35,767 bases of DNA from Bacteroidales bacterium (lineage in GTDB: Bacteria; Bacteroidota; Bacteroidia; Bacteroidales; ML635J-15), in contig QKHS01000002.1 of the NCBI GenBank assembly GCA_003249955.1, forward strand, positions 1 through 35,767, given 5' to 3'. The notes beneath the pieces are model-generated. The model had not been told where the DNA came from. It did not search any database and saw nothing but the letters and a program-made list of their open reading frames with translations. Position 1 is the stretch's first letter. The number at the start of each line of letters is the position of its first letter. Positions 11,576 through 35,767 of this stretch are shown here, in pieces. The translations under genes and the position numbers were made by a program.

Positions 11576-13177
11576 ATGCGATTAAAAGGATTGGTATTGC
11601 CGCTGATTGGACTATTATTTCTGTCTGTTAATATTTTTGCTCAGGATGTAAATGCTGAGACAAGAAAATTCAATAAAATGCTTTCGCTTATTGATGCAAT
11701 GTATGTTGACTCTGTAGATATGGACGGGTTGGTAGAGACTGCTATAGTAAGTATGCTTAAAGAAATGGACCCGCACTCTGTTTATATAAGTGCCGAGGAA
11801 ATAGAAAAAATGAAGGAACCTCTCGAAGGAAGCTTTGAAGGTATTGGCGTTCAGTTTCGCATAATGGAAGATACATTGCTGGTAGTTGGCGTTATCAGTG
11901 GTGGTCCGTCGGAAAAAGTAGGGATTCATAATGGGGACAGAATTATTGTTGTAGATGATGAAAATATTGCAGGTGTGGGAATCGACAATAATGGTGTTGC
12001 AAAAAGATTAAGAGGGAAAAAAGGTACTGTTGTAAAAGTTGAGGTTTTGAGAAGAAGCGAAAAGCAGCCACTTGTTTTTAATATTACAAGAGATAAAATT
12101 CCGATTTACAGCGTAGATGCCAGTTATATTACTGATGATAATACAGGTTATATAAAACTCAATAAATTTGCCAGAACAACCAAGGAAGAACTGGATTCTG
12201 TATTTACAACATTTGTAAAAGCCGGGGTAAAAGATATTATTCTGGATTTAACCGGAAATACAGGAGGATATCTTGATAAAGCTGTTAGCCTTTGTGATGA
12301 ATTCCTGCAAAAAGATAAGCTTATTGTTTATACCGAAGGCGTAAGAATGCCACGCTCTGACTACAAATCAACAAAAGACGGACGTTTCTACAGAGGTAAA
12401 CTTATCGTTTTGGTTGATGAAGGATCTGCATCTGCCAGCGAGATTGTTTCCGGAGCATTACAGGATTGGGACAGAGCTGTTATTGTCGGACGCCGCACTT
12501 TCGGTAAAGGACTGGTACAAAGAGAAATGCCGCTTACTGATGGTTCTGCAGTACGCCTAACAATTGCACGTTATTATACTCCTACCGGCAGACTTATTCA
12601 AAAACCTTATGTGGAAGGTTATGACGAGTATGCAGATGATATGACAAACAGATATCTGCATGGAGAATTTATGCATAAAGACAGTATCGTTTTTGCAGAC
12701 TCACTTAAATATGAAACTCTGGTTTACAAAAAGACAGTTTATGGTGGCGGAGGTATTATGCCTGATGATTTTATTCCTGTTGATACAACCTTAAGATCAG
12801 ATTTTCATCTCGAACTTTTACGCAAAGGAGTATTGTTTACATTCGTTTCAAAATATGTTGACCAGCACAGGGCAGAGTTAAATGAAAAATATCCTGATAT
12901 AGAAACATTTAAACGTGATTTCGAAGTGAATCAGGAAGTACTTGACATGCTTACTACAGAGGCTAAAGAGCAAAAGATTAATGTTGACTCATTAACGCCG
13001 GCAACTGAGGCTCAGAATACATATCTTAAAGTGCATTTAAAATCACTTATTGCAGGTGATATCTGGAGAAATAATGAATTCTGGTTTATTTTTAACGATA
13101 TTAACCCGTTTTTCCTTCGTGCTCAGGAAATCATTAACGACGACAAACTTTACGATTCATTGCTGAAGGGAAAATAA
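11576..13177 (+). CDS. S41-family C-terminal processing peptidase (CtpA/Prc type)
   Basis: The 533-residue enzyme has a signal peptide (MRLKGLVLPLIGLLFLSVNIFAQ) and therefore acts in the periplasm or at the cell envelope. A PDZ domain covers about residues 84-165 (GSFEGIGVQF, then VISGGPSEKVGIHNGD), followed by the S41 catalytic domain (VDEGSASASEIVSGALQDW, then GRRTFGKGLVQ). By alignment with known family members, the catalytic serine is Ser286 (the middle Ser of SASAS) and the general base is Lys311, 25 residues later. The C-terminal part, about 370-533, is the helical extension seen in Bacteroidota members. A TTG at 11567 would add three residues; ATG at 11576 gives a normal signal peptide. 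It overlaps the next gene by one base (TAATG). Family members trim exported proteins from their C-termini; the substrate here is unknown. Confidence 0.95.
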   Translation: MRLKGLVLPLIGLLFLSVNIFAQDVNAETRKFNKMLSLIDAMYVDSVDMDGLVETAIVSMLKEMDPHSVYISAEEIEKMKEPLEGSFEGIGVQFRIMEDTLLVVGVISGGPSEKVGIHNGDRIIVVDDENIAGVGIDNNGVAKRLRGKKGTVVKVEVLRRSEKQPLVFNITRDKIPIYSVDASYITDDNTGYIKLNKFARTTKEELDSVFTTFVKAGVKDIILDLTGNTGGYLDKAVSLCDEFLQKDKLIVYTEGVRMPRSDYKSTKDGRFYRGKLIVLVDEGSASASEIVSGALQDWDRAVIVGRRTFGKGLVQREMPLTDGSAVRLTIARYYTPTGRLIQKPYVEGYDEYADDMTNRYLHGEFMHKDSIVFADSLKYETLVYKKTVYGGGGIMPDDFIPVDTTLRSDFHLELLRKGVLFTFVSKYVDQHRAELNEKYPDIETFKRDFEVNQEVLDMLTTEAKEQKINVDSLTPATEAQNTYLKVHLKSLIAGDIWRNNEFWFIFNDINPFFLRAQEIINDDKLYDSLLKGK

Positions 13178-13776
13178 TGGAATTAATAATTGGCTGGCTG
13201 CAGCAAAACTGGTTTGAAACTACTGCTGCTGCTTTGGGGTTGATAGGTATTTACCTGCAGATAAAGCAAAATCCGTGGTATTGGTTTACTGCCATATTGA
13301 TGGTATTGATGTATATCGTAGTATTTTATCAGTCAAAGTTTTATGCCGATATGTCATTTCAGTTTTATTATCTTGCAATAAGCATATATGGTTGGTTGTT
13401 CTGGTTGTCGGGAAAAGAGAATAATACTGAAAAGACTGTAAATACTTCAAGACTGACTATTAAGAGTTGGGTGTTATCATTACTGGCATCGTTTATCCTT
13501 TTTATTATTATTTATAACATTCTTGGAAAATATACAGATTCGGATGTAGTTGCAGGAGATGCATTTACAACAGCCCTCAGTTTTGTGGCAACCTTGCTTC
13601 TTGCACGTAAGATTCTCGAAAACTGGCTTTTCTGGATAGTCGTGGATTTGGTTTCAACCGGGCTATATATTTACAAAGGACTTTACCCAACTGCAATATT
13701 GTTTTTTGTTCTCACAGTACTGGCTTTTGTGGGCTATTATCAATGGAAAAGAACTTTAATAAATGAAAATGAGTGA
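13177..13776 (+). CDS. pnuC: PnuC-family nicotinamide riboside transporter
   Basis: The 199-residue protein is almost entirely hydrophobic, with about seven membrane segments. The conserved PnuC region is visible near the N-terminus (GIYLQIKQNPWYWFTAI, and QFYYLAISIYGWLFW), as is the C-terminal DLVSTGLYIYKGLY segment. PnuC proteins are facilitators that let nicotinamide riboside, or in some subfamilies thiamine or riboflavin, cross the inner membrane; trapping by phosphorylation drives uptake. The gene starts at the stop of the protease gene and overlaps the following kinase by 14 bases. A NadR-like kinase next door points to nicotinamide riboside rather than thiamine. Confidence 0.93.
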   Translation: MELIIGWLQQNWFETTAAALGLIGIYLQIKQNPWYWFTAILMVLMYIVVFYQSKFYADMSFQFYYLAISIYGWLFWLSGKENNTEKTVNTSRLTIKSWVLSLLASFILFIIIYNILGKYTDSDVVAGDAFTTALSFVATLLLARKILENWLFWIVVDLVSTGLYIYKGLYPTAILFFVLTVLAFVGYYQWKRTLINENE

Positions 13777-14293
13777 AACAATAAAAATAGTGCTAACGGG
13801 TCCTGAATCTGTAGGGAAATCTACATTAACCAAACAACTGGCAGATTATTTTAAGGTGCCATATGTTTCTGAAATAGCCCGCGAATACATTTCAAATCTT
13901 AAGCGGCCATATAATATTGATGATGTTGTTGAAATAGCAGGATTACAGATTGCTGCCGAAAAAGAAGCCCTTAGTAGTAGCCCGCGAATTGTTTTTTTTG
14001 ATACAGACCTGATAATTACAAAAATATGGTTGTTGCATGTTTACGGACAATGCCCGTCATGGATTGATGAAGAACTGAGACAAAATCCGGCTTATTTTCA
14101 TTTGCTTTGTTATTACGATTTACCATGGGAACCTGATCCTGTTCGTGAGAATCCCGATATAAGGTCTTTGTTGTACGATAAATACGAAGCAGAAATAAAT
14201 AATTACGGACTAAAATACGGCGTTGTTAAAGGGCTTGACAATAACAGATTTTTAAATGCAATAGCTCTTCTGAGGGAAAATCATATAATCTGA
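13763..14293 (+). CDS. NadR-like nicotinamide riboside kinase (AAA/P-loop domain only)
   Basis: The 176-residue protein is a compact P-loop kinase. Walker A is GPESVGKST (residues 13-21), followed by a conserved SEIAREYI segment and a FFDTDLIITKIW segment with an acidic DTD, as in the C-terminal domain of NadR. The DNA-binding and NMN adenylyltransferase domains of classical NadR are absent, so this would be a stand-alone ribosylnicotinamide kinase making NMN from imported nicotinamide riboside. Bacteroidota often carry such short forms annotated as AAA-family ATPases. It overlaps pnuC by 14 bases, which makes a two-gene salvage unit likely. ATG at 13769 is an alternative start, two codons in. 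Confidence 0.88.
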   Translation: MKMSETIKIVLTGPESVGKSTLTKQLADYFKVPYVSEIAREYISNLKRPYNIDDVVEIAGLQIAAEKEALSSSPRIVFFDTDLIITKIWLLHVYGQCPSWIDEELRQNPAYFHLLCYYDLPWEPDPVRENPDIRSLLYDKYEAEINNYGLKYGVVKGLDNNRFLNAIALLRENHII

Positions 14294-14309: not shown

Positions 14310-14341
14310 CTTTTTTCATTTCGGAAAAAAGTATATATTTG
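14310..14341 (+). promoter_or_regulatory. Promoter -7 box and A/T hairpin before the carbamoyltransferase operon
   Basis: TATATTTG at 14334-14341 matches TAnnTTTG and lies 18 bases before ATG at 14359. Just upstream, CTTTTTTC (14310-14317) can pair with GAAAAAAG (14324-14331) around a 6-base loop. The hairpin may weaken read-through from the kinase gene, but it has no following T-run, so it is not a classical terminator. Together they suggest the carbamoyltransferase operon has its own start. Confidence 0.45.
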
Positions 14342-14358: not shown

Positions 14359-16047
14359 ATGAATATTTTAGGGTTATCATGTTACTATCACGATTCGGCA
14401 GCTTGTCTTATCAAAGACGGAAAGTTGGTTGCAGCAGTTCAGGAAGAAAGATTTAACCGTGTAAAAAATTCATCAGATTTTCCGATAAATGCGATAAATT
14501 TTTGTATTCAGCAAGGTAATATAGGGTTTGACCAGATTGATTATGTAGCATTTTACGAAAAGCCATTTCTTAAATTCAGTCGTGTTATACAGGATATTGT
14601 TTCAAAATTTCCGTCATCATATGGTTCGTTCATACGTAATACCCCGCAATGGTTGCAGGACAGGCTTATACTTCCGGCAGTCCTGAAGCGCGAAATAGCA
14701 TATAAAGGAAAAGTTTTGTTTATTCCGCACCATCATGCACATGCCGCCAGTACCTTTTTTGTATCTCCGTTTAAAGAGGCGGCAATTCTTATTAATGACG
14801 GGGTAGGAGAATTTGCTGCTTCAAGTTACGGATTCGGGAAAGACAATAATATTGAGCTTGTTAACCAGATAAATTATCCCGATTCGCTGGGATTACTTTA
14901 TACATGCATAACAACATTTCTGGGTTTTAAGGCAAACAGCGGAGAAGGTACAACAATGGCACTGGCAAGTTTTGGACAACCTTCATATATTGAAGAGTTT
15001 CGTAAAATTATTAATGTAGCCGAAGATGGTAGTTATAAAATAAATCAAAAATATTTTTCGCTTAACAAAAGAAAAAGAATGTATTCTGGTGAGATGATCA
15101 GGCTTCTTGGAGAACCCCGTAAATACGGAACGGATTATACTCAGCGACATAAAGATATTGCAGCAACATTGCAGTATGTTATAGAAGATTGCCTTGTTAA
15201 ACAGGCCGGATTTGTTCATAAAACATATGGAAGTGATAATCTTTGTCTTGCAGGAGGAGTATTTCTTAATTGTGTTGCTAATCAGAAAATTCTTGAACAA
15301 ACGCCGGTAAAAAACATATTTATTCAACCTGGAGCCGGAGATGCCGGTGCTGCAATCGGAGCGGCTTTTTATGCATATAATGCCATTCTTGGTAACCAAA
15401 GAACGTTTGTGATGACAAATGCATACCTGGGGCCGGAATCACAAAATAAAGATATTGAAATTGCCTTAAAAGCCAACGGGCTGAAATTACAAAAACTTGA
15501 ATATGACGAACTTTTGGAGGTTGTAACCGGACGCATTATTGCAAAGAAAACAGTAGGCTGGTTTCAGGGACGGCTGGAGTTTGGGCCGAGGGCTTTAGGA
15601 AACCGCTCTATTCTTGCCAGCGCGCAGGATACCGAGATGGTAGAAATTCTTAATAGCCGCATTAAACATCGGGAATGGTTTCGCCCTTTTGCCCCGATAG
15701 TAAAAAAGGAAAAAGCAGGAGAGTATTTTAAAATGCTGAACGATTCTCCGTTTATGTTACTTGCCCCTGAAGTGCTTGAAGAAAAAAAATCTGTAATACC
15801 GGCTGTTACACACATTGATGGCACAGCAAGAACACAGTCTGTAGATAAAGAGTTTAACCCTCTTTTGTGGCAATTACTTGATGTCCACGAAAAGAAAACA
15901 GGAATTCCGGTAATAATTAATACGTCATTTAACCTGCAGGCAGAGCCTATAGTTTGTACTCCCGAAGAGGCAATAAATGATTACTTAAAGTCTGATATGG
16001 ATTGTCTTGCTTTAGGAAACTATTTTGTTGAAAAAGCCAATGACTAG
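14359..16047 (+). CDS. NodU/CmcH/TobZ-type O-carbamoyltransferase
   Basis: The 562-residue enzyme is full length for the family, which moves a carbamoyl group from carbamoyl phosphate to a hydroxyl (or amine) through a carbamoyl-adenylate. The N-terminal half has the YrdC/Kae1-like features: GLSCYYHDSAA (residues 5-15), EERFNRVK, the metal-binding HHHAHAA (124-130), DGVGEF (147-152) and LAGGVFLN (297-304). The C-terminal carbamoyltransferase half has GRLEFGPRALGNRS (404-417) and the late IINTSFN motif. All expected motifs are present. It heads an operon: the SGNH hydrolase gene overlaps its stop by 8 bases (ATGACTAG). Substrates in the family range from Nod factors to antibiotics and saxitoxin-like compounds; the one here is unknown. 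Confidence 0.95.
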   Translation: MNILGLSCYYHDSAACLIKDGKLVAAVQEERFNRVKNSSDFPINAINFCIQQGNIGFDQIDYVAFYEKPFLKFSRVIQDIVSKFPSSYGSFIRNTPQWLQDRLILPAVLKREIAYKGKVLFIPHHHAHAASTFFVSPFKEAAILINDGVGEFAASSYGFGKDNNIELVNQINYPDSLGLLYTCITTFLGFKANSGEGTTMALASFGQPSYIEEFRKIINVAEDGSYKINQKYFSLNKRKRMYSGEMIRLLGEPRKYGTDYTQRHKDIAATLQYVIEDCLVKQAGFVHKTYGSDNLCLAGGVFLNCVANQKILEQTPVKNIFIQPGAGDAGAAIGAAFYAYNAILGNQRTFVMTNAYLGPESQNKDIEIALKANGLKLQKLEYDELLEVVTGRIIAKKTVGWFQGRLEFGPRALGNRSILASAQDTEMVEILNSRIKHREWFRPFAPIVKKEKAGEYFKMLNDSPFMLLAPEVLEEKKSVIPAVTHIDGTARTQSVDKEFNPLLWQLLDVHEKKTGIPVIINTSFNLQAEPIVCTPEEAINDYLKSDMDCLALGNYFVEKAND

Positions 16048-18073
16048 GCAAAATAAAATATTGCTTTTATCTGTTTTACTTTTGCTTATTAGTGCAGGAA
16101 CAGTTCTTTTTATGTCCGTAAAAACTGCCCGTGTTCCTTTTATTTCAACAACAGGATTTTACATCCATGGAATTGATTCCGATGACCCTGAACTTATATC
16201 TTCGTGGGGACAATATAAAAACAGTGATGAACATTTGTATATACATTGTTTCCAGCAATACCGTAGTACCGAAGATTATATTTACGATTACTGGCGCAGA
16301 GACATGTTTTTTTATTTTAAAGCAGACCGTGTTTTTCTGGAAATGCCGGACAGCATATGGGCAAAGGTAGATTTTGTCTGGTTTAAAACCGGCAATAAGG
16401 TTTTGAAATATGACAAAACCAATATGGAGAATGAATGGGAAACCGAAAGGAGTCCAGGGAAAATTATGTTTGTTTCAGGGCAAAATCAGATATCAGGGAA
16501 TACAATCTATGACGGATTTAAAAGTTTCTGGAATTCTTCAGCGGAGTTGGGAATCAACAATAAGTTTCCGGTAAGCATTCTGTTTGTTCTCTTATTGGGT
16601 ATGATAATTTATAGCCTTTCAGAAAAAATAAAATATGTGCTGAATTTAATTCTGAAAAAACTAAGGTCATATGTAAATAAACATAAAAATTTCTTTTCAG
16701 GAGTGTTTTCTGTGTTTGCCGGTTTGATTACGGTTTTTATTTTTCTGGAAATCAGTCTTAGAATAATAGGCTATTTTCACGAAAAGCAGAATATTAATAA
16801 AAATTACAGTATTGCAAAAGATGCAGACAAATTAATTGTATGCCTGGGCGATAGCTTTACCGAAGGTTTTGGTTCCGGCTTTGGAAATGACTACCCGGCA
16901 GTATTGAACAGAATGGTAAAAGAGGAATTTGGTCAGGATTATCAGGTTGTAAACTTTGGGCAGTCAGGCAAAAATACTACTCAGATTAAAGATGAATTTC
17001 TAAATTATCTTGAAATAAAGACCCCTGAGGTGGTGGTTTTAATGGCCGGATCTGCAAACTATTGGAACTATTACGGCTTCGAAAACAAAACAGGATTTAT
17101 TTATAATATCAGAACGTTTAAACTTATAAAACTTCTTTGGAACCAGATTTTCTCGGAGAAAGCAGAAAAGAGAATACATGGTAATACTGATTACTTTTCG
17201 GAAGCAGAATATCTGGAAAACAGAAATGAATTTCAACAATCAGATATGATTAAAACTTTAAATTCCCATCCTGCAGATTCGTTGGAAAAATTTACTGACA
17301 GAGATTTAATTTATTATTCGATATTGACAAATACTACTCAGGACTTTACCACTGATTTCAGAAATTCACAGGATTCAGATTTGCAACAATTATTGATTAT
17401 CCATGATTTATATAAAGGTGTCCCGGTTGATTTTAATTTATTATCTTCGGGTTATTACAAGGCTTTGTATTTCTATTTGTGTTCAACAAAAAAGGATAGC
17501 TTTCATAAGAAAAGATACCTGTTTATGGCATTAAGAGAGTATCCGTACCTTGAAGATGCATATTATGGTCTGGTTGCAGGATCGAACAGTTTCTTACCTT
17601 TGTTAAAATCTGATTACAGCGAAAACAGAGTGTGTATTGCTGATACGGTTACTTATTATAAAATCAAATTCGGATTTGTCCAGCCGGGAGTTAAAACAGG
17701 TAAAGTATTTATTAATGAAAGCACAGATCTTGACATTGAAAAAAGTAAAATTAACAGGTGGGTAGAGGATGATCTGGAAGAAATTATTGTAGCTTGCAGG
17801 AAAAAAGGTGTGCAGCTTATAATTATGACTTATCCGTATAAATATAAAAATCCTTTGTATGCTCCGGTTAATGATGTCCTTTACGGACTTGGCAAAAGAT
17901 ACAATATTCCTGAAGTAGATAATTTTTCTGCATTTGATAAGATTACAGAGGACAGGGATTCTTATTTTGTGGCAGACGGACATTGCAGTGATAAAGGATA
18001 CAGGTATATTGCAGAACAAATTTTTGAAGTAATTAAATCCGAAAAAATGTTGAAAGACACAGATGCTGAATAA
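16040..18073 (+). CDS. Membrane-anchored SGNH/GDSL-family hydrolase
   Basis: The 677-residue protein begins with a signal anchor (about residues 6-26), has a divergent soluble region, then two hydrophobic segments (about 175-195 and 220-245). The SGNH domain starts at about 265: block I is LGDSFTEGFG with the nucleophile Ser272, the oxyanion block is VNFGQSGKNTTQ, block III is GSANYWN (Asn in place), and block V is VADGHCSDKG with Asp646 and His648. About 200 residues are inserted between blocks III and V. ATG at 16040 is chosen over in-frame TTGs at 16025 and 16028 because it overlaps the carbamoyltransferase stop. SGNH enzymes are esterases or acyltransferases; with a carbamoyltransferase next door a glycan or glycolipid substrate is plausible. 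The next gene overlaps by 11 bases. Confidence 0.88.
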   Translation: MTRQNKILLLSVLLLLISAGTVLFMSVKTARVPFISTTGFYIHGIDSDDPELISSWGQYKNSDEHLYIHCFQQYRSTEDYIYDYWRRDMFFYFKADRVFLEMPDSIWAKVDFVWFKTGNKVLKYDKTNMENEWETERSPGKIMFVSGQNQISGNTIYDGFKSFWNSSAELGINNKFPVSILFVLLLGMIIYSLSEKIKYVLNLILKKLRSYVNKHKNFFSGVFSVFAGLITVFIFLEISLRIIGYFHEKQNINKNYSIAKDADKLIVCLGDSFTEGFGSGFGNDYPAVLNRMVKEEFGQDYQVVNFGQSGKNTTQIKDEFLNYLEIKTPEVVVLMAGSANYWNYYGFENKTGFIYNIRTFKLIKLLWNQIFSEKAEKRIHGNTDYFSEAEYLENRNEFQQSDMIKTLNSHPADSLEKFTDRDLIYYSILTNTTQDFTTDFRNSQDSDLQQLLIIHDLYKGVPVDFNLLSSGYYKALYFYLCSTKKDSFHKKRYLFMALREYPYLEDAYYGLVAGSNSFLPLLKSDYSENRVCIADTVTYYKIKFGFVQPGVKTGKVFINESTDLDIEKSKINRWVEDDLEEIIVACRKKGVQLIIMTYPYKYKNPLYAPVNDVLYGLGKRYNIPEVDNFSAFDKITEDRDSYFVADGHCSDKGYRYIAEQIFEVIKSEKMLKDTDAE

Positions 18074-19517
18074 GGTTTATAACATATTACCCGGCTTTGT
18101 ACAGAATCTGGCTATTGAAATACACCGGGATTTAAGACTGTTTGCATATGAATTTTTAAAAGCTGAAAAATCAGCAAAATGCAGCGGGATAAGCAAAAAT
18201 GTTCTTGAAGGGTTTAACAGATCAAGAAGATACGGGCCTTTAAAGCATGTTTGTTATGCTCCTTACACAAGCATGTTCTTTTCGCGTTCCGGCCTGGTTT
18301 CCCCCTGCTATGCAAGTTATAATTCAGAGTCTTCACATATGTCTCAACACAGTATCAGGGAAATATGGTTTAACGGATCGTTTCGCAAAATACGGGAAGA
18401 ACATTCAACATGTAATCTGTCATCAACCTGTAAGTTTTGTAAAGACATAATGGAATCTGGTTCTTACGGCAGTTTGCTTATAAACAAATATGAGCATTAT
18501 GCTTTTTCAAAATCAGAATATCCTGTGATAATGGAATTTGAGTTGTCTAATACCTGCAATCTTTCCTGCATAATGTGTGATTCAAACCTTTCGTCAGGAA
18601 TAGCCGGGGCTGATTGTGCCGGCACCTCAGGAAATCAGCATTACAAATCCAGGTTTTTTGACGAACTGCGTGAATTTATCCCGTATTTGCAGTTGGCAGA
18701 ATTTACAGGTGGAGATCCTTTTATGATAGAAGAATATTACAAAATCTGGGAAATGATTTCTGTATTGAACCCGGCATGTAATATTCTTGTTACAACAAAT
18801 GCAAACACTATGAATCCCCGTGTGGAGCGATTTATGGATTCGCATAAAAAAATCAGTTTTAATATTTCTATAGATTCTTTACAAAAAGAAAATTACGAAA
18901 AAATAAGGAGAAACGGCAACTTTGAGTTTGCCTTGAATAATATTGAAAAATTTCTGAATTATAGCCGTAAAAACAAAACTCAGGTTAATATTCTGGTTTG
19001 CCCTATGACTGTTAACCGGAATGAGTTTGCTGATTTTGTAAATTTTGCAAATGAAAAACAAATTTGTGTTTATTTCCATACTGTTATAAAACCCAAAAAC
19101 CTGTCTTTAAAGTATTTTGATAAAAATGAGCTTGGGAAACTGATTGCAGATATGGAAAAACAAAAATTTCCGGCACGTACAAAAAACGAAAAAATAAACA
19201 GCAGGAATTTTTCAAACCTTATAGAATTGCTTAAAACATGGTATGATGATAAGGATTCAGAACCTGAAGCAATAGAGTCTCAAAAGCCTGAAATAAGTAC
19301 TGAAGAGGCAGAAAAAATACTGCGTGATAAAGTTTTGACACATTCCCCGCATTTGGCGGATAAATTTGATGAGCTGCTTTCCGGAATTTGTGATTTTGAA
19401 AATGCTGATTATGTTAAGATGAGACTTTTTAATGTGAAGGATGATGAGTTTTTTGAGTATCTTGCGGATAAAAGTATCTCAGATCTCATTGAAATTTGCA
19501 GAGGCTTAAAAAAATAA
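18063..19517 (+). CDS. Radical SAM protein with N-terminal SPASM-like cysteine region (paralogue 1)
   Basis: The 484-residue protein carries the radical SAM cluster motif CNLSCIMC (Cys165, Cys169, Cys172), a TGGDPF motif (216-218 as the GGE-like site), and later barrel strands such as NISIDSLQKE and NILVCPM. Ahead of the barrel, residues 64-126 look like a SPASM domain: CYAPYTSMFFSRSGLVSPC, then IREIWFNGSFRKIR, then CNLSSTCKFC (Cys64, 82, 117, 123, 126). In most SPASM enzymes this domain follows the barrel, so the order is reversed. A helical tail of about 100 residues ends the protein. It starts inside the end of the SGNH gene and overlaps it by 11 bases. SPASM enzymes modify peptides, sugars or tRNA-like substrates; no precursor peptide gene is visible nearby, so the substrate is open. 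Confidence 0.9.
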   Translation: MLNKVYNILPGFVQNLAIEIHRDLRLFAYEFLKAEKSAKCSGISKNVLEGFNRSRRYGPLKHVCYAPYTSMFFSRSGLVSPCYASYNSESSHMSQHSIREIWFNGSFRKIREEHSTCNLSSTCKFCKDIMESGSYGSLLINKYEHYAFSKSEYPVIMEFELSNTCNLSCIMCDSNLSSGIAGADCAGTSGNQHYKSRFFDELREFIPYLQLAEFTGGDPFMIEEYYKIWEMISVLNPACNILVTTNANTMNPRVERFMDSHKKISFNISIDSLQKENYEKIRRNGNFEFALNNIEKFLNYSRKNKTQVNILVCPMTVNRNEFADFVNFANEKQICVYFHTVIKPKNLSLKYFDKNELGKLIADMEKQKFPARTKNEKINSRNFSNLIELLKTWYDDKDSEPEAIESQKPEISTEEAEKILRDKVLTHSPHLADKFDELLSGICDFENADYVKMRLFNVKDDEFFEYLADKSISDLIEICRGLKK

Positions 19518-20968
19518 CAGGAGTGATAAAACATAAGATTTCAGATATTGTCGCTACATTTTCAGGGTTTGTGAAAAAATCACGAAATAAAATACGTTAC
19601 CGTAACCTGTCAGACCTTATAAATCCGGCATTTGGCAATAAAGACAAACTGCTGGCTTATAACAAAAGCCGTGTAACAGGACCTGAACCTTGTGTGTGTC
19701 ATGCTCCTTCACGAAGTTTATATTTTGATATTCACGGCAAAGCGACAGCATGTTGTTTTAACAGGGCAAATGTTTTGGGTAAATTTCCGGAGAACAGCAT
19801 AAGCGAAATTATAGACGGGGGAAAACGCAGGTTTTTACAGACAGAATTATGTAGGCAGAATTTTATGTATGGCTGTCAGCATTGCCACAAACTTATAGAA
19901 GCCGGGAATTTTGACGGTGCCGAATCCAGATTATACGACAATCTTAAGGATCAGGCTTATGTCCCGTCCGAAATAATATTTGAACTGGACAATACATGCA
20001 ATCTGGAGTGCGCAATGTGTCACGGGGAATTTTCTTCGTCAATAGCAAAAAGGCAGGGACTGGATAAAATTAAACATCCTTACAGCCCGGAATTTCTTAA
20101 ACAACTTGAGGCATATACCCCAAGCCTTAAAGTCGCAAAATTCCTTGGCGGAGAACCTTTTCTGATAAGTATTTATTATGAAATATGGGATTTGATAATA
20201 AAGCTTAACCCAAAATGCAAAATCAATCTTCAGACAAACGGAACCGTTTTTAACGACAGAGTGAAGTCTTATCTGGAGAAAGGCAATTTTTACGTTGGAA
20301 TTTCCGTCGATTCTTTACAAAAAGAAAGATTTGAATCCATTCGTAAAAATGCAGTTTTTGAGAATGTGATGGATAATATAGACAGGTTTATTGAAATCTC
20401 GAAAAAGAAAAATAATTATGTAAACATTTCGGTTTGTCCTATGCAGCAGAATTGGGAAGAGATTCCTGCTATTGTAGAGTATTGCAACCGTAAAAATGTG
20501 TTCGTTTATTTTAATACTGTTTATACTTCCGGGTTTGCAATATCCGAAATGCCTGAAGATAAACTGCTTGAAATTCTGGAATTTTACAAATCAGTAAAAA
20601 TTGAAGGTACAGGAATTATTGCAAAACGTAATATCAGATTTTTTGAAAATCTTACCTCTAATATTGAAAGCTGGTATGCCGCAAAAGAAGAAGCTTCACG
20701 TCCTTACCGCAGGAGGCATTTGTGGAATACTCATATGCTGGAACTTAAGATGTTGGGAAAATTGAAGAATCATGAAAATCTGAGTCCTGTAATTACAGAA
20801 GTTTTTAAACCTTTGGAGAAGGAATTTTATTTGTCTGATAACGACCTGATTTCGCTGGAAAATATTAAAGAAGAAGATGTTGTTCAATCGGCAGAGAACG
20901 AATCTGTTGAAGAAATCCGGAAAAGAATATTACTTTTTATTGAAACAGGGAGATTTAATGCAAAATAG
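19496..20968 (+). CDS. Radical SAM protein with N-terminal SPASM-like cysteine region (paralogue 2)
   Basis: This is a paralogue of the preceding gene, with the same order: SPASM-like cysteines first (Cys66, 68, 86, 87, 119, 127, 130), then radical SAM Cys168, Cys172, Cys175 in CNLECAMC, and a classical GGEP at 218-221. DSLQKE and the VCPM strand recur in both proteins, and an 18-base DNA stretch is identical (18873-18890 and 20309-20326). The frame has no early ATG: either TTG at 19496, which overlaps the previous gene by 22 bases, or GTG at 19523, 5 bases after its stop and preceded by AGGAG, must serve as start. It ends 32 bases before a convergent gene. Length is 490 residues from the TTG, or 481 from the GTG. 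The pair may act sequentially or as a heterodimer on one substrate. Confidence 0.88.
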   Translation: MQRLKKITGVIKHKISDIVATFSGFVKKSRNKIRYRNLSDLINPAFGNKDKLLAYNKSRVTGPEPCVCHAPSRSLYFDIHGKATACCFNRANVLGKFPENSISEIIDGGKRRFLQTELCRQNFMYGCQHCHKLIEAGNFDGAESRLYDNLKDQAYVPSEIIFELDNTCNLECAMCHGEFSSSIAKRQGLDKIKHPYSPEFLKQLEAYTPSLKVAKFLGGEPFLISIYYEIWDLIIKLNPKCKINLQTNGTVFNDRVKSYLEKGNFYVGISVDSLQKERFESIRKNAVFENVMDNIDRFIEISKKKNNYVNISVCPMQQNWEEIPAIVEYCNRKNVFVYFNTVYTSGFAISEMPEDKLLEILEFYKSVKIEGTGIIAKRNIRFFENLTSNIESWYAAKEEASRPYRRRHLWNTHMLELKMLGKLKNHENLSPVITEVFKPLEKEFYLSDNDLISLENIKEEDVVQSAENESVEEIRKRILLFIETGRFNAK

Positions 20969-29760: not shown

Positions 29761-30786
29761 TCATAAGTGCTTTGTGAAATCTATGCCCATTTTCCCGGCA
29801 ACATCCTGTAATGTTTTTTTGTCGAAGTTTAATTTAAGCTGTTCCAGAGCCTCTTCGCGTGTAATAACACCTTCGCGGATTAACTTGCTGGCTTCTACAT
29901 GATAGTGAGTGTAGCCGAAATGCTTTAATGAATTATAAACAGATATAAAATTCAATGTACAGTTTGTCGATCCGGCCGGGTAACTTAATTCAGGAGCCTT
30001 CCACCCCAGTTCTTCTTTTATAATTTTTATATATTCTTCAGGTCCGTAAGGCAGAAACCAATGTGGTGATATTACGAGGGATTTGTGACGTTTTTTTGCC
30101 CGCTTAAGCACTTCTTCCATGCTTTTCGGGAAATTTTTATATTGTTCGTAATCTGACAAACTATTCTCCAGAAAGTCTTTTGTGCTGTCTGCCATAGCTT
30201 TAAACTCAGCCGCATGAACATTACAACCACACTTGGACATTACTTCCTGCTTTGTTGATTGCCCTTTTGTCCAGCCTGCAACAATCAGCGGAATATCATA
30301 GCGGGCTGCCGTGTCAAAAGCCAGATCCATATACCAGATTGAGCAAGGGTGACAAATAACTGCTTTTGAATCTGTACTTATCATCTTTTCAAACATTGGC
30401 TTCATAAAAGATGATTTATACAAAATAAGATCTATTCCTAAAATATCTACAGCCTTGTTTACATTGGATATGGCTTCTTCTGTCTCAAAACCATGGTCAA
30501 ACATAAAAGCCAGAACATTTAGTTTATATCTTTTTTTCATAAAATACAAAGCGGAGGTGCTGTCTTTTCCGCCACTGCACATTACCATGCAATCATATTT
30601 GTGCTTTCCGCGGTGTTTGTCCAGAATCTTAATGAGATCGCTTTCAAGCGGTTTTTGAATAACTTCGGTTTTTTTTACAAAGTCGTGGGCAAGACAAATA
30701 TTACAAACTCCGTCGTCATTAAAAAAAATGTCAGGTGGGTTTTCCGGCATAATGCAGCGTTTACAGATTTTATTTCCGTCCTGCAT
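29761..30786 (-). CDS. PP-loop ATPase of the N-acetyl sugar amidotransferase type
   Basis: The 341-residue protein has a four-cysteine N-terminal knuckle (Cys8, Cys11, Cys28, Cys31 in CKRCIMP and GVCNIC), then the ATP-pyrophosphatase P-loop SGGKDST (residues 71-77). This matches the WbpG/PseA-like family, which adenylates a sugar and adds an amine. Two further cysteine pairs (Cys145/Cys148 in CHPC and Cys186/Cys188 in CGC) could hold an iron-sulfur cluster or relay sulfur. The C-terminal part (EASKLIREGVITREEALEQL) is the usual end of the family. The gene starts 2 bases after a TusA-like sulfur carrier, so thiolation rather than amidation is a real alternative: related PP-loop enzymes such as MnmA and ThiI insert sulfur. 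It is the last gene of a four-gene operon. Confidence 0.9.
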   Translation of the reverse strand: MQDGNKICKRCIMPENPPDIFFNDDGVCNICLAHDFVKKTEVIQKPLESDLIKILDKHRGKHKYDCMVMCSGGKDSTSALYFMKKRYKLNVLAFMFDHGFETEEAISNVNKAVDILGIDLILYKSSFMKPMFEKMISTDSKAVICHPCSIWYMDLAFDTAARYDIPLIVAGWTKGQSTKQEVMSKCGCNVHAAEFKAMADSTKDFLENSLSDYEQYKNFPKSMEEVLKRAKKRHKSLVISPHWFLPYGPEEYIKIIKEELGWKAPELSYPAGSTNCTLNFISVYNSLKHFGYTHYHVEASKLIREGVITREEALEQLKLNFDKKTLQDVAGKMGIDFTKHL

Positions 30787-31862: not shown

Positions 31863-33731
31863 ATGAAAGATTCAGGTTTATATAAACTGAGATCGGCGAT
31901 TATATCGTTCCGGGAACTTCTTATATTGCTTTGTTTGTTCACTTTTTTATTTAGTTTTACCTCTTGTACAGGAAGGCTCAAAGATTCGGACTTTCCGGAG
32001 GAAGTTAACTATGAGTCTGATGCGAAAACTGATTCAGTATTTTCCGTTTTATTAAATTATTACAATGAAGATACCGATTCTGCAATAATAAAAGCTATCG
32101 AGTCGGAAGAACAGTTTATCAAAGAAAAAAGATACAGTGATCTGGTAAGGTTATACAGTTTTTTGTCAGAGGTTTACCAATATCGTAAAAATGATGATTA
32201 TAAGGCCCTTGAGTACATCACTAAGGGGATAGATATTGTTGCCACACATCCTGATATGCAATTTGACAGGACATTTCTGTACATAAATGTGGGTAATATT
32301 ATGTACCGGTATAAGCTTTATGATGAAGCAATATATATTTACCGGGAGATTCCTAAAATTACAGATGCTGGGAAAAAGCCAGGAGTAATGGCTTTGATTT
32401 ATAATAATATAGCACTTTCTTTTCAGGCTAAGCACGAGTGTGATACAGCGAAATATTATTTTGATCTTACCGAAAAATTCATAGAAGAATCCGGAATCAG
32501 TGAAACGATTTTAAAAATACAATATTATTATTACCGGAGTTCCTTATCATTAGATTGCGGGGAAGTTGACTCAATACCTGTTTATTATAAGAAAACGGAA
32601 GCACTCTTTAACGGGATAGATAATGTAATTAATCAGTATTCAAAGTTAAGTTATGTTAAGCAATACTGGCATGATGTCAGCCTCAATTATTACATAAATA
32701 AAATCAGGTTGCTGGATAAAATGGCAGAGTATTGCAGGTTAAAAGGCGATGCGGAAACTGCAATGATCTTTTATGCCAGAGCTCTGGACTATTCAAAAAT
32801 CAGCAAGGATTGTATCAGGGGGGTGGATATTTTTATCGGGATGTCCGATGCCTGCATTTCGATGGATAATTACGATTCTGCATTACTATATCTTGACTCT
32901 GCCTTAAATCAGCAAGGTTGTGATAATACCGATTATGAGGAATTAAGCAAAATTTATATTAAAGAATCTGAGATTTTTGAGTTCAGAGGAGATAGCGGAG
33001 ATGCCATCGAATGTAGGAAACTTGCCGATTTATATGTTGATAGCCTTAAACAACAAAAATTTTCGGACGAATTGGTACTGAAGAAAATGGAGTTGGCAGT
33101 AAAACCTGTTCAGTTGGCTATGAAAAATATTGAGCTTAGCAGAAATGATAAAATAAGAACAATAGAAAATCAAAATCTTATTATTAATTTTTTACTCGCT
33201 GTTTTTATTTTTATTTCCTTAACTCTTTTTATTTATTACCGTCTCTATAAAAATCTTAAAAAGACCCAACGGGAGCTGGCAACCAGAACTATTGAGAAAT
33301 TAAAAATTACCAATAATGCCGGTGCCGGTACTGAAAAAAATAAACTCAGCGATGCCGTTGAACAGGAATTGTTGTTAAAGTTCGAAGAAGAGGTATTGAA
33401 TAAAAAAGCATTTCTTGAGAGTAATCTCACACTAAATGTAATTGCAGAAAAACTAGAGACCAACAGATCGTATATTTCCAGAATAATCAACACTGTTTAT
33501 GGAATGAACTTTAACGATTATATTAATAAGTTGAGAATAAATGAAGCTTGCACAATAATCTGCAACAATACCAATCCAAATTTTACCATAGATCATTTGT
33601 TCTCAGAAGTAGGTTTTACAGGTAAATCAACATTTTATGCAGCATTTAAAAAGTACTCCGGAGTTACCCCGGCAGTGTTCTTTAAAATGAATAATATGAC
33701 CGGCAATCATTCTGACCCACAAAACGGGTAA
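31863..33731 (+). CDS. Membrane-bound TPR and AraC-type DNA-binding regulator
   Basis: The 622-residue protein begins with a hydrophobic signal (about residues 15-34) ending in a lipobox-like FTSC (Cys35). Residues about 60-410 are helical repeats of TPR type (YKLYDEAIYIYREIPK, NIALSFQAKHECDTAKYYFDL, AMIFYARALDYSK, DNYDSALLYLDSAL). One membrane segment follows at about 440-460 (FLLAVFIFISLTLFIYY), then a short linker and a C-terminal AraC-type double helix-turn-helix domain (about 500-610; LNVIAEKLETNRSYISRIIN and HLFSEVGFTGKSTFYAAFKKYSGVTP). This layout, a periplasmic TPR sensor joined through the membrane to a cytoplasmic AraC domain, is common in Bacteroidota. The signal and the target genes are unknown; it stands divergent to the SxtJ operon, which is a natural candidate target. 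Confidence 0.9.
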   Translation: MKDSGLYKLRSAIISFRELLILLCLFTFLFSFTSCTGRLKDSDFPEEVNYESDAKTDSVFSVLLNYYNEDTDSAIIKAIESEEQFIKEKRYSDLVRLYSFLSEVYQYRKNDDYKALEYITKGIDIVATHPDMQFDRTFLYINVGNIMYRYKLYDEAIYIYREIPKITDAGKKPGVMALIYNNIALSFQAKHECDTAKYYFDLTEKFIEESGISETILKIQYYYYRSSLSLDCGEVDSIPVYYKKTEALFNGIDNVINQYSKLSYVKQYWHDVSLNYYINKIRLLDKMAEYCRLKGDAETAMIFYARALDYSKISKDCIRGVDIFIGMSDACISMDNYDSALLYLDSALNQQGCDNTDYEELSKIYIKESEIFEFRGDSGDAIECRKLADLYVDSLKQQKFSDELVLKKMELAVKPVQLAMKNIELSRNDKIRTIENQNLIINFLLAVFIFISLTLFIYYRLYKNLKKTQRELATRTIEKLKITNNAGAGTEKNKLSDAVEQELLLKFEEEVLNKKAFLESNLTLNVIAEKLETNRSYISRIINTVYGMNFNDYINKLRINEACTIICNNTNPNFTIDHLFSEVGFTGKSTFYAAFKKYSGVTPAVFFKMNNMTGNHSDPQNG

Positions 33732-34520: not shown

Positions 34521-34585
34521 AAAAAAATTAATTTTCCCTTCTTAATACAAATTTTTTGTATTTTTACTTAGCCTTGCAAAGTAAC

Positions 34586-35767
34586 ATGATAACAAAACAA
34601 ACTACCTCCAAAAGCTTATTGCTGTTGAGAGTTTTCTCAGCTATAGTATTTCTTATTGCTATGTTGCTGATGATGTTTTATGTTTCAGCGATTAATTTTG
34701 GCAAAGAAATTTATGTGAATGATGATAAGGGGATACAGGAAGTTGTAGTAATAAGCCCTTTGGGTAACAAACAAACTTTGCAGAGTTCAGACGGTCAGTA
34801 TTATTTTCACGGGTATCTTAATTCTGTTATAGTTTCAACCGACGGAACTTTGCAGGCAGATCAAATACAGATTTGTAACCATGATGGATATAATGTTGAG
34901 ATTACAATTGCTGAAACTGAAGGAGATTCTTATACCTTTTCAACCCGGGGGCTTAGCTTTTTTAGCAAAGCAGAAATATTTTTACATGTAAACCGCATTA
35001 AATTGATATTCGGTTTTTTATTTTTTTGCTTTTATATTACTTTTTTAATTATTCCACTCAAATTTATTTCACCGATTCAAAAAGCTTCTGCAAAATTAAT
35101 ATCGGAGCTGCGAAAAATCTGTTTTTTTGTTAAAACAGGTAAGATAAGGCTCTTATTAAGTGTTGTTAGTGCGCTGATAATAATTTTTTTACTGCGTTTT
35201 GCTGCAGGTATCAGGTTCGAAGTTCTGTATTTCTCAAATACGGTTTTAATTCATTTAATTGTTTTCTCATTCATTATTATTCCGGTAACAGGGATATATT
35301 TTTATAAAAATATTAAACCTGAAAAACGTTTTTCATTTTTTAGTTTCTGGATAATTTTTTATCTGCTTTACTTTCTGGTTTGTCCTGGGGATTTTGCAGG
35401 GAATTATGGTTTTCACGGCTTCTTTTTTGATTATCTTTTCCGACCGCCTCAACTAGGAATTTTTAAAAGCTTTTTTGTCCCGGACACCGGTTATGTTGCA
35501 TTGATTCCCCGAATAACATACGGATTAGCTTCTTTGGCAGATAAATACGGAGCTTCGTCAATTGCAATAACATCATTAATTTCACTTATAATTTATTCAT
35601 GGATTTTTGCTTTGTTTTGTAACCCCCGGTTTCGGTTTATTATCAGGAATGACTATTTAAGATGTTTTTTTGTAATCTTCTTTGCCGTTTTTTCTTTGTA
35701 CAGTCTGTCGTTATCAAGGCATTATTCCCTTTCTGTTACCGATGTCGCTTATTTTGGGATAATTCTT
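34586..35767 (+). CDS. Polytopic membrane protein, 3' end outside the window
   Basis: The frame from ATG at 34586 is open for 394 codons to the window edge. The product has an N-terminal membrane segment (about residues 13-37), an extracytoplasmic beta-rich part of about 100 residues (EVVVISPLG, then YYFHGYLNSVIVSTDG), a second membrane segment near 140-158, then at least six more from about 185 to the edge (LLLSVVSALIIIFLLRF, VFSFIIIPVTGIYFY, FWIIFYLLYFLV and others). The layout recalls integral-membrane glycosyltransferases or polysaccharide-export proteins, and the loop with FRPPQLGIFKSFF and DTGYVALIPRITYG recalls loops of such proteins. I do not recognise a definite family. It follows the structured RNA by about 65 bases and has no clear promoter of its own. 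Confidence 0.75.
   Translation, partial: MITKQTTSKSLLLLRVFSAIVFLIAMLLMMFYVSAINFGKEIYVNDDKGIQEVVVISPLGNKQTLQSSDGQYYFHGYLNSVIVSTDGTLQADQIQICNHDGYNVEITIAETEGDSYTFSTRGLSFFSKAEIFLHVNRIKLIFGFLFFCFYITFLIIPLKFISPIQKASAKLISELRKICFFVKTGKIRLLLSVVSALIIIFLLRFAAGIRFEVLYFSNTVLIHLIVFSFIIIPVTGIYFYKNIKPEKRFSFFSFWIIFYLLYFLVCPGDFAGNYGFHGFFFDYLFRPPQLGIFKSFFVPDTGYVALIPRITYGLASLADKYGASSIAITSLISLIIYSWIFALFCNPRFRFIIRNDYLRCFFVIFFAVFSLYSLSLSRHYSLSVTDVAYFGIIL

Follow-up and report, generated by a model that had tools for sequence, protein, structure and literature searches.

A carbamoyltransferase, a membrane SGNH enzyme and two N-twitch radical SAM proteins encoded in a row in a Bacteroidales genome: a possible tailoring unit for a surface glycan

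Radical S-adenosylmethionine (SAM) enzymes that edit sugars are known mainly from antibiotic pathways, and HygY, going by a title, is reportedly a sugar epimerase of such a pathway. In an excerpt of one account, twitch and SPASM domains are described as C-terminal extensions, the auxiliary cluster of BtrN (2-deoxy-scyllo-inosamine dehydrogenase) having four Cys ligands and serving a two-electron oxidation, and that of MoaA having an open site (PMC9012708). For NeoN, Cys249 is proposed as the hydrogen donor (PMC10991966, excerpt). Carbamoylation of a surface glycan is described for Pseudomonas, where a putative WapO modifies the core heptose of lipopolysaccharide and the excerpted text mentions no radical SAM partner for it (PMC8005017). 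Here we analysed a stretch of 35,767 nucleotides (the window), contig C34 (QKHS01000002.1) of a Bacteroidales genome, G000 (GCA_003249955.1), which encodes in a row a predicted carbamoyltransferase (CarbT), a membrane SGNH/GDSL enzyme (SGNH) and two radical SAM proteins (rSAM1 and rSAM2) with a twitch domain N-terminal to the core; G, L and C labels below denote the genomes, loci and contigs compared. The operon combines two modules, CarbT-SGNH and the rSAM pair, and we put at about 0.5 the probability that its four genes form one tailoring unit for a cell-surface glycan (of O-antigen, capsule or glycolipid type) with radical, carbamoyl and SGNH steps. The protein families are already known and their combination is a variant for which we found no published description: the openly accessible literature, most subscription papers lying outside the search, yielded none for radical SAM, carbamoyltransferase and SGNH (or O-antigen) together, and no paper in it was found for an 'N-terminal twitch'.

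Distribution and association of the two gene pairs

Sixty-one genomes (G000 included) were searched with rSAM1, SGNH and CarbT, and 20 stretches were read. The results showed that CarbT has an adjoining SGNH gene in 6/61 genomes, those of the window and G003, G011, G014, G018 and G020 (CarbT identity 76-81%), while rSAM1 orthologs occur in 12/61, with rSAM2 adjoining in 11 of them; the exception is G057, whose two genes share a contig at a distance of about 12 kb. A census of the family, with a threshold of E below 1e-200, found rSAM1 in 11/31 genomes; at 1e-90 the tally rises to 12 through G030, whose matches are paralogs. When the species-genome collection was pattern-scanned with rSAM1, 11 loci came up, those of the 11 other genomes counted above, in metagenome-assembled genomes (nine Bacteroidales, one Marinilabiliales and one Bacteroidota). 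The rSAM pair is present in all six genomes with CarbT-SGNH, for which the chance probability is 6e-4 on the assumption, untrue here, that genomes are independent, and 4e-3 when G001 counts as an exception. G018 has the same four-gene order and the same 11-base overlap of SGNH and rSAM1 at saturated synonymous sites; its CarbT and SGNH genes abut without overlap, and its rSAM genes are 7 bases apart. Between G003 and G014 the ratio of nonsynonymous to synonymous substitution rates (dN/dS) was 0.11 for rSAM1, 0.11 for rSAM2, 0.07 for CarbT and 0.18 for SGNH, showing all four genes to be under purifying selection, and since all four have orthologs as well as low dN/dS, the four-gene observation is more than chance.

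A wider comparison took in 295 genomes of the class, 12 of which (G000 included) hold N-twitch relatives. One locus was read in each of the other genomes (11 loci, L152-L162) together with 12 control regions, which were chosen by us and not at random; the second loci of G322 (L141, on a 3.4 kb contig) and G227 (C292) stand outside the locus counts. The SGNH profile matched 8/128 neighbour ORFs (open reading frames), spread over 6/11 loci, compared with 0/172 control ORFs (p 0.001 by ORF and 0.005 by locus, independence assumed). With a second-round profile, which contains the first-round hits so that the scores of those hits themselves are not independent, the controls again gave 0/172, and an SGNH gene was found within 60 bases and on the same strand in 5/6 loci with tandem N-twitch genes, defined as co-directional with a gap of up to 60 bases. 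The SGNH gene lies upstream of the tandem genes in L154, L155, L160 and L161 and downstream in L153; in the sixth locus, L157, the upstream gene is divergent and not an SGNH gene, and downstream the contig ends after only 271 bases. Block I of the SGNH genes beside the pair in L154 and L155 reads GCS or GSS, not GDS, with the serine kept. The tandem N-twitch/SGNH loci belong to three families, f80, f58 and f44.

The neighbours of the relatives also gave the operon a moderately supported glycan context. Pfam scans, which took in 110/128 neighbour and 110/172 control ORFs, found among the neighbours GDSL proteins (8), PF04488 sugar transferases (6), AsnB (4), carbamoyltransferases (3), family-2 glycosyltransferases (3), membrane parts of ABC-2 exporters (3) and UbiA (3), compared with none of these among the 25 families shown for the controls, the rarest of which had 2 members; the two sets were alike in their numbers of ABC ATPases (4 and 4) and of other radical SAM proteins (4 and 3). 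Closer to the window, a WbuX-like gene scoring under its model cut-off directly precedes CarbT-SGNH in G011 and G020 (L090 and L096), a family-2 glycosyltransferase gene belongs to the same run as CarbT-SGNH in G014, with identical order in G003, and in L158, from another family, WbuX (scoring above the cut-off), CarbT and an SGNH gene that is split make up a tight run. The 43 kb contig of G057 with the rSAM1 and rSAM2 orthologs carries an ABC exporter pair, a flippase, a glycosyltransferase, a polysaccharide deacetylase, WbuX and two AsnB-like genes, and in G019 the rSAM pair comes after a cassette made up of an AsnB-like gene plus two others that by eye resemble glycosyltransferase genes. 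A plasmid protein of the methanotroph Methylomagnum ishizawai (NZ_AP019784.1, 186599-188101), annotated as a twitch radical SAM protein (37% identity to rSAM2 over 72%), has asnB, UbiA, glycosyltransferase and ABC transporter genes as neighbours.

Several observations weigh against a single unit. The four genes are together only in G000 and G018, 2/6 genomes; CarbT-SGNH and the rSAM pair are about 9 kb apart in G011 and on different contigs in G003, G014 and G020. Six genomes (G008, G019, G024, G028, G029 and G057) have rSAM1 without the CarbT-SGNH pair, an SGNH gene adjoins just 2/11 adjacent rSAM pairs in the family, and G001 has a piece of CarbT at a contig end and no rSAM1 ortholog. The enrichment of CarbT beside N-twitch genes is weak (3/128 neighbour and 0/172 control ORFs, p 0.08, all in one genus), the neighbours of the rSAM pair that were scanned in G003, G008, G011 and G020 have no common or glycan theme, and the N-twitch gene of L159 lies among genes that by eye look like housekeeping genes. 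A generally conserved four-gene unit is rejected, and the retention of the junction between G000 and G018 is modest evidence, because the surrounding gene order is also common to both. An earlier note, made from the window alone, had named the absence of radical SAM genes beside close CarbT homologues as a finding that would speak against its four-gene operon, and such an absence is seen in 4/6 genomes (G003, G011, G014 and G020). The same facts of separation, the six genomes with rSAM1 but no CarbT-SGNH pair and the shared flanking order favour a different explanation, in which CarbT-SGNH acts on one glycan and the rSAM pair in another pathway, the two being chance neighbours whose short overlaps reflect compact packing in one lineage. 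We regard this explanation as possible but doubtful, given that every CarbT-SGNH genome holds the rSAM pair, that an SGNH gene stands next to tandem N-twitch pairs again in f44, f58 and f80, and that order and overlap were kept despite saturated synonymous divergence.

Domains and residues of the four proteins

The nearest NCBIfam model for both radical SAM proteins is NF033640 (N_Twi_rSAM), matched over nearly the whole length with scores of 145.6 bits (rSAM1) and 131.1 bits (rSAM2) that do not reach the curated cut-off of 170; the cut-off is passed by the relatives L160:4535-6043 and L161:7404-8921 and by the Methylomagnum protein. The description of the model assigns no function to the N-twitch family, and rSAM1 and rSAM2 share its order, with the twitch ahead of the radical SAM core. 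PF04055 scored 54.7 bits in rSAM1 and 60.2 bits in rSAM2, and the SPASM model PF13186 scored 25.8 bits at residues 64-126 of rSAM1, N-terminal to the core. The 'SPASM-like' label of the earlier note therefore has to be replaced: the domain is a twitch ahead of the core, not a C-terminal SPASM domain, and neither protein is a C-terminal SPASM maturase, both carrying an N-terminal BtrN-like four-Cys twitch. A profile of 31 relatives matched both BtrN domains in swapped order (the core match being weak alone), and the twitch Cys residues of rSAM1 aligned with those of BtrN. Seven Cys are kept in 31/31 rows, four in the twitch (C64, C82, C123 and C126) and three in the core (C165, C169 and C172). 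In common with BtrN, as the excerpt describes it, rSAM1 would thus have a twitch with matching Cys, a four-Cys auxiliary cluster and a radical SAM core (PMC9012708); it differs in having the twitch before rather than after the core and about 100 extra C-terminal residues.

The predicted structure of rSAM1 has a mean pLDDT (predicted local distance difference test) of 89 and gave a radical SAM barrel in the structure search, where BtrN does not appear in the match lists, an absence that is uninformative. C313, which is kept in 28/31 rows, sits directly after strand 308-312 of the model, and by analogy with NeoN it is proposed as a candidate hydrogen donor of rSAM1. The likeness to NeoN and HygY, epimerases of antibiotic pathways, is one of description, in that a Cys would serve as hydrogen donor, and C313 is here a candidate for that part.

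In a tree of 66 N-twitch proteins rSAM1 and rSAM2 each formed a supported clade of its own, the same 12 genomes being represented in both, and judged by this tree they are an anciently separate ortholog pair. Recent duplication as the source of the pair is excluded by these clades and by the position of rSAM2 inside a supported 17-row group without rSAM1. Weak radical SAM relatives (23-29% identity) were also found in 13 Vibrio phages; the large Vibrio phages K566 and K567 (OZ196521.1 and OZ196593.1) carry such weakly related genes in two places per genome, with 23% identity and a match that reaches into the twitch part.

The fold lists of rSAM1 mix peptide- and sugar-acting enzymes with SuiB, a peptide enzyme, in first place, which also tells against a sugar substrate. 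Best matches by sequence or fold further include the peptide-acting SkfB, the CteB-type 5wgg and anSME, as would be expected if rSAM1 and rSAM2 were peptide or protein maturases (RiPP-like, that is, acting on ribosomally synthesised and post-translationally modified peptides, or sulfatase-maturase-like) and CarbT and SGNH acted on another product. We consider this unlikely, as the auxiliary domain is the N-terminal four-Cys twitch, the relatives are located in glycan loci, and no small-ORF family occurs in more than 2/11 pair loci (the comparison covered 100 small ORFs lying within 4 kb, which leaves room for a remote or unlisted precursor). RiPP maturation as the principal explanation was rejected for want of a shared small ORF, and the remark of the earlier note that no precursor peptide is visible is supported, no precursor-peptide family having been seen near the rSAM pair.

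Two of the side loci concern N-twitch genes. L102:1-19900 (G057:C30) holds seven of them in 20 kb, including the orthologs of rSAM2 and rSAM1 (the latter truncated where the stretch ends), and in addition carries an ABC exporter pair and a CarbT-like gene. L014:1-19901 (G000:C91), a second N-twitch locus of the genome itself, combines two N-twitch genes with two other radical SAM genes, one of the B12 type and one MoaA-like, and with ketosynthase-like genes and an AsnB-like gene; cassettes resembling it occur in G011 and G018. Many N-twitch genes have as a neighbour a member of a family marked by DXD-like and WNGGVFLF motifs and a length of about 400 residues (alignment A7; L104:2607-3851 and five relatives). 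Pfam offered no convincing match to this family and the PDB profiles none below E 0.08; by its DXD-type motif it looks glycosyltransferase-like.

CarbT is by its sequence clearly an O-carbamoyltransferase, matching Carbam_trans_N (PF02543, 277.3 bits) and Carbam_trans_C (PF16861, 224.2 bits) far over the cut-offs. It shares both Pfam domains with TobZ, GdmN, NodU and the enzyme of structure 7xb6 (VtdB) and is alignable over its full length with the solved antibiotic-pathway enzymes 7xb6, GdmN, the novobiocin enzyme and TobZ; its score of 160.7 bits against the NodU equivalog NF041651, under the 1000-bit cut-off, places it outside that equivalog. The likeness to WapO is one of description, the carbamoylation of a surface glycan (PMC8005017, excerpt). 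The antibiotic enzymes matched by CarbT, the match of the twitch to BtrN of butirosin synthesis (PMC9012708, excerpt) and the presence of BlsE of blasticidin S synthesis among the best fold matches of rSAM1 would suit a different product, a diffusible small molecule that is carbamoylated, resembles an aminocyclitol or a nucleoside and is built with the help of distant genes as well. Scaffold-forming genes were not recognised beside the operon, and the relatives adjoin polysaccharide export genes and sugar transferases, and we hold such a product to be unlikely. Elsewhere in the same genome, L016:6167-9837 (G000:C54) encodes in a row another carbamoyltransferase (43% identity), a protein of 119 residues and a further SGNH-like protein.

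The SGNH protein scored 57.8 bits with PF13472 (cut-off 32.9) and has three hydrophobic regions. All blocks of the superfamily are present, with D271-S272, G307/G310, N340 and D646-H648 invariant in 5/5 rows of alignment A3, which leaves out the split gene of G011. It shares these four blocks with SGNH/GDSL membrane enzymes and differs from them by a region of about 150 residues between membrane segments 1 and 2 and by a large insert in the SGNH domain that is absent from the G003 and G014 orthologs. Its predicted structure (pLDDT 42.8) was too poor for a structure search, and in a sample of 395 from the class the SGNH profile matched no further genome at E 1e-30. In the ortholog of G011 (L090:14108-16198) an in-frame TGA separates two ORFs, through either a broken gene or an assembly error.

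Gene layout and other features of the window

The four + strand ORFs listed for the window, 14359-16047, 16025-18073, 18063-19517 and 19496-20968, bear out the chaining described in the earlier note, with overlaps of 8 and 11 bases and a third overlap or tiny gap. The first in-frame start of SGNH is TTG 16025, and ATG 16040 gives the 8-base overlap with CarbT; SGNH and rSAM1 overlap at 18063-18073. For rSAM2 the options are TTG 19496 (22-base overlap with rSAM1) and GTG 19523, from about which the orthologs align, so that GTG 19523 is probably the start and the junction probably a 5-base gap. The positions are given in Table 1.

Table 1. Positions of the four genes, their domains and a further gene in the window
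Feature	Position	Strand	Evidence
CarbT, O-carbamoyltransferase (predicted), 562 amino acids	14359..16047	+	PF02543 + PF16861
SGNH, membrane SGNH/GDSL enzyme (predicted), 677 amino acids from ATG 16040	16040..18073	+	PF13472
SGNH catalytic region (approximate)	16835..18055	+	PF13472, alignment
rSAM1, N-twitch radical SAM protein, 484 amino acids	18063..19517	+	PF04055, PF13186, NF033640
rSAM1 twitch domain, C64, C82, C123, C126	18252..18440	+	BtrN twitch match
rSAM1 radical SAM core (approximate), C165, C169, C172; C313 after barrel strand	18522..19112	+	
rSAM2, N-twitch radical SAM protein, 490 amino acids from TTG 19496	19496..20968	+	PF04055, NF033640
WbuX-like sugar amidotransferase	29761..30786	-	TIGR03573 187.9 bits, cut-off 203.2

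Since its homologues directly precede CarbT in G011 and G020, the WbuX-like gene of the window is a possible distant partner of the operon. Promoter and terminator scans of the window ran at about chance level and were not informative; the motif TATATTTG lies at 14334-14341, shortly 5' of CarbT, and has 50 copies in the window compared with 54 expected. Directly 5' of CarbT, at 13177-14293, mutually overlapping genes encode a PnuC-type transporter and a NadR-like kinase of nicotinamide riboside salvage. A TPR/AraC-type regulator gene (31863-33731) is 11 kb from the rSAM pair, and in G011 and G024 its homologues L091:5365-7212 and L093:12384-14279 are divergent immediate neighbours of the rSAM pair. 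The ORF at 34556-35767 runs off the window end, and the gene order of G018:C31 suggests that contig G000:C61 (start of L017, with a 766-residue SGNH protein) follows the window.

Proposed function

The operon unites the recurrent CarbT-SGNH and SGNH-rSAM-rSAM associations through a single SGNH gene. Its simplest account is that it tailors a surface glycan, with the carbamoylated lipopolysaccharide core of Pseudomonas and the radical editing of sugars in aminoglycoside pathways as precedents. In the cytoplasm, rSAM1 and rSAM2 would act on a nucleotide- or polyprenyl-linked sugar, the CX3CX2C cluster of each generating a 5'-deoxyadenosyl radical that would take a hydrogen from a sugar carbon, while the four-Cys twitch cluster would handle an electron. 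If C313 returned a hydrogen from the opposite face the result would be epimerisation, and without such a return a ketone; the radical chemistry can thus be read in two ways, the four-Cys cluster pointing to oxidation and C313 to epimerisation, and this counts against a settled version of the scheme. CarbT would carbamoylate a sugar hydroxyl, and on the periplasmic side the membrane SGNH enzyme might remove or transfer an acyl group on the same glycan. The protein families, Cys residues, catalytic blocks, gene order and glycan genes next to relatives come directly from the analysis; one common glycan, the step order, the substrates, epimerisation or oxidation, the membrane side and co-transcription are what we infer. 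The earlier suggestion of a modified product made inside and finished at the membrane thus survives in its glycan version, which the neighbourhoods of the relatives favour, and fails as regards a generally conserved set of four genes, a failure qualified by the rSAM pair in all CarbT-SGNH genomes and by the SGNH genes beside tandem N-twitch genes in three other families.

More tentatively, and on balance with less confidence than for the operon itself, tandem N-twitch enzymes might be a glycan-editing class of Bacteroidia that carries out radical epimerisation or oxidation of lipid- or nucleotide-linked surface sugars, with SGNH as a regular partner and carbamoylation as an option. If so, the swapped twitch would represent a distinct architecture for radical chemistry on sugars. 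Should N-twitch pairs edit surface polysaccharides, a large family would gain a substrate class and a testable chemistry, bacterial glycans may contain sugars that sequence-based prediction has missed, and the recurrent SGNH partner would offer a handle for locating such loci.

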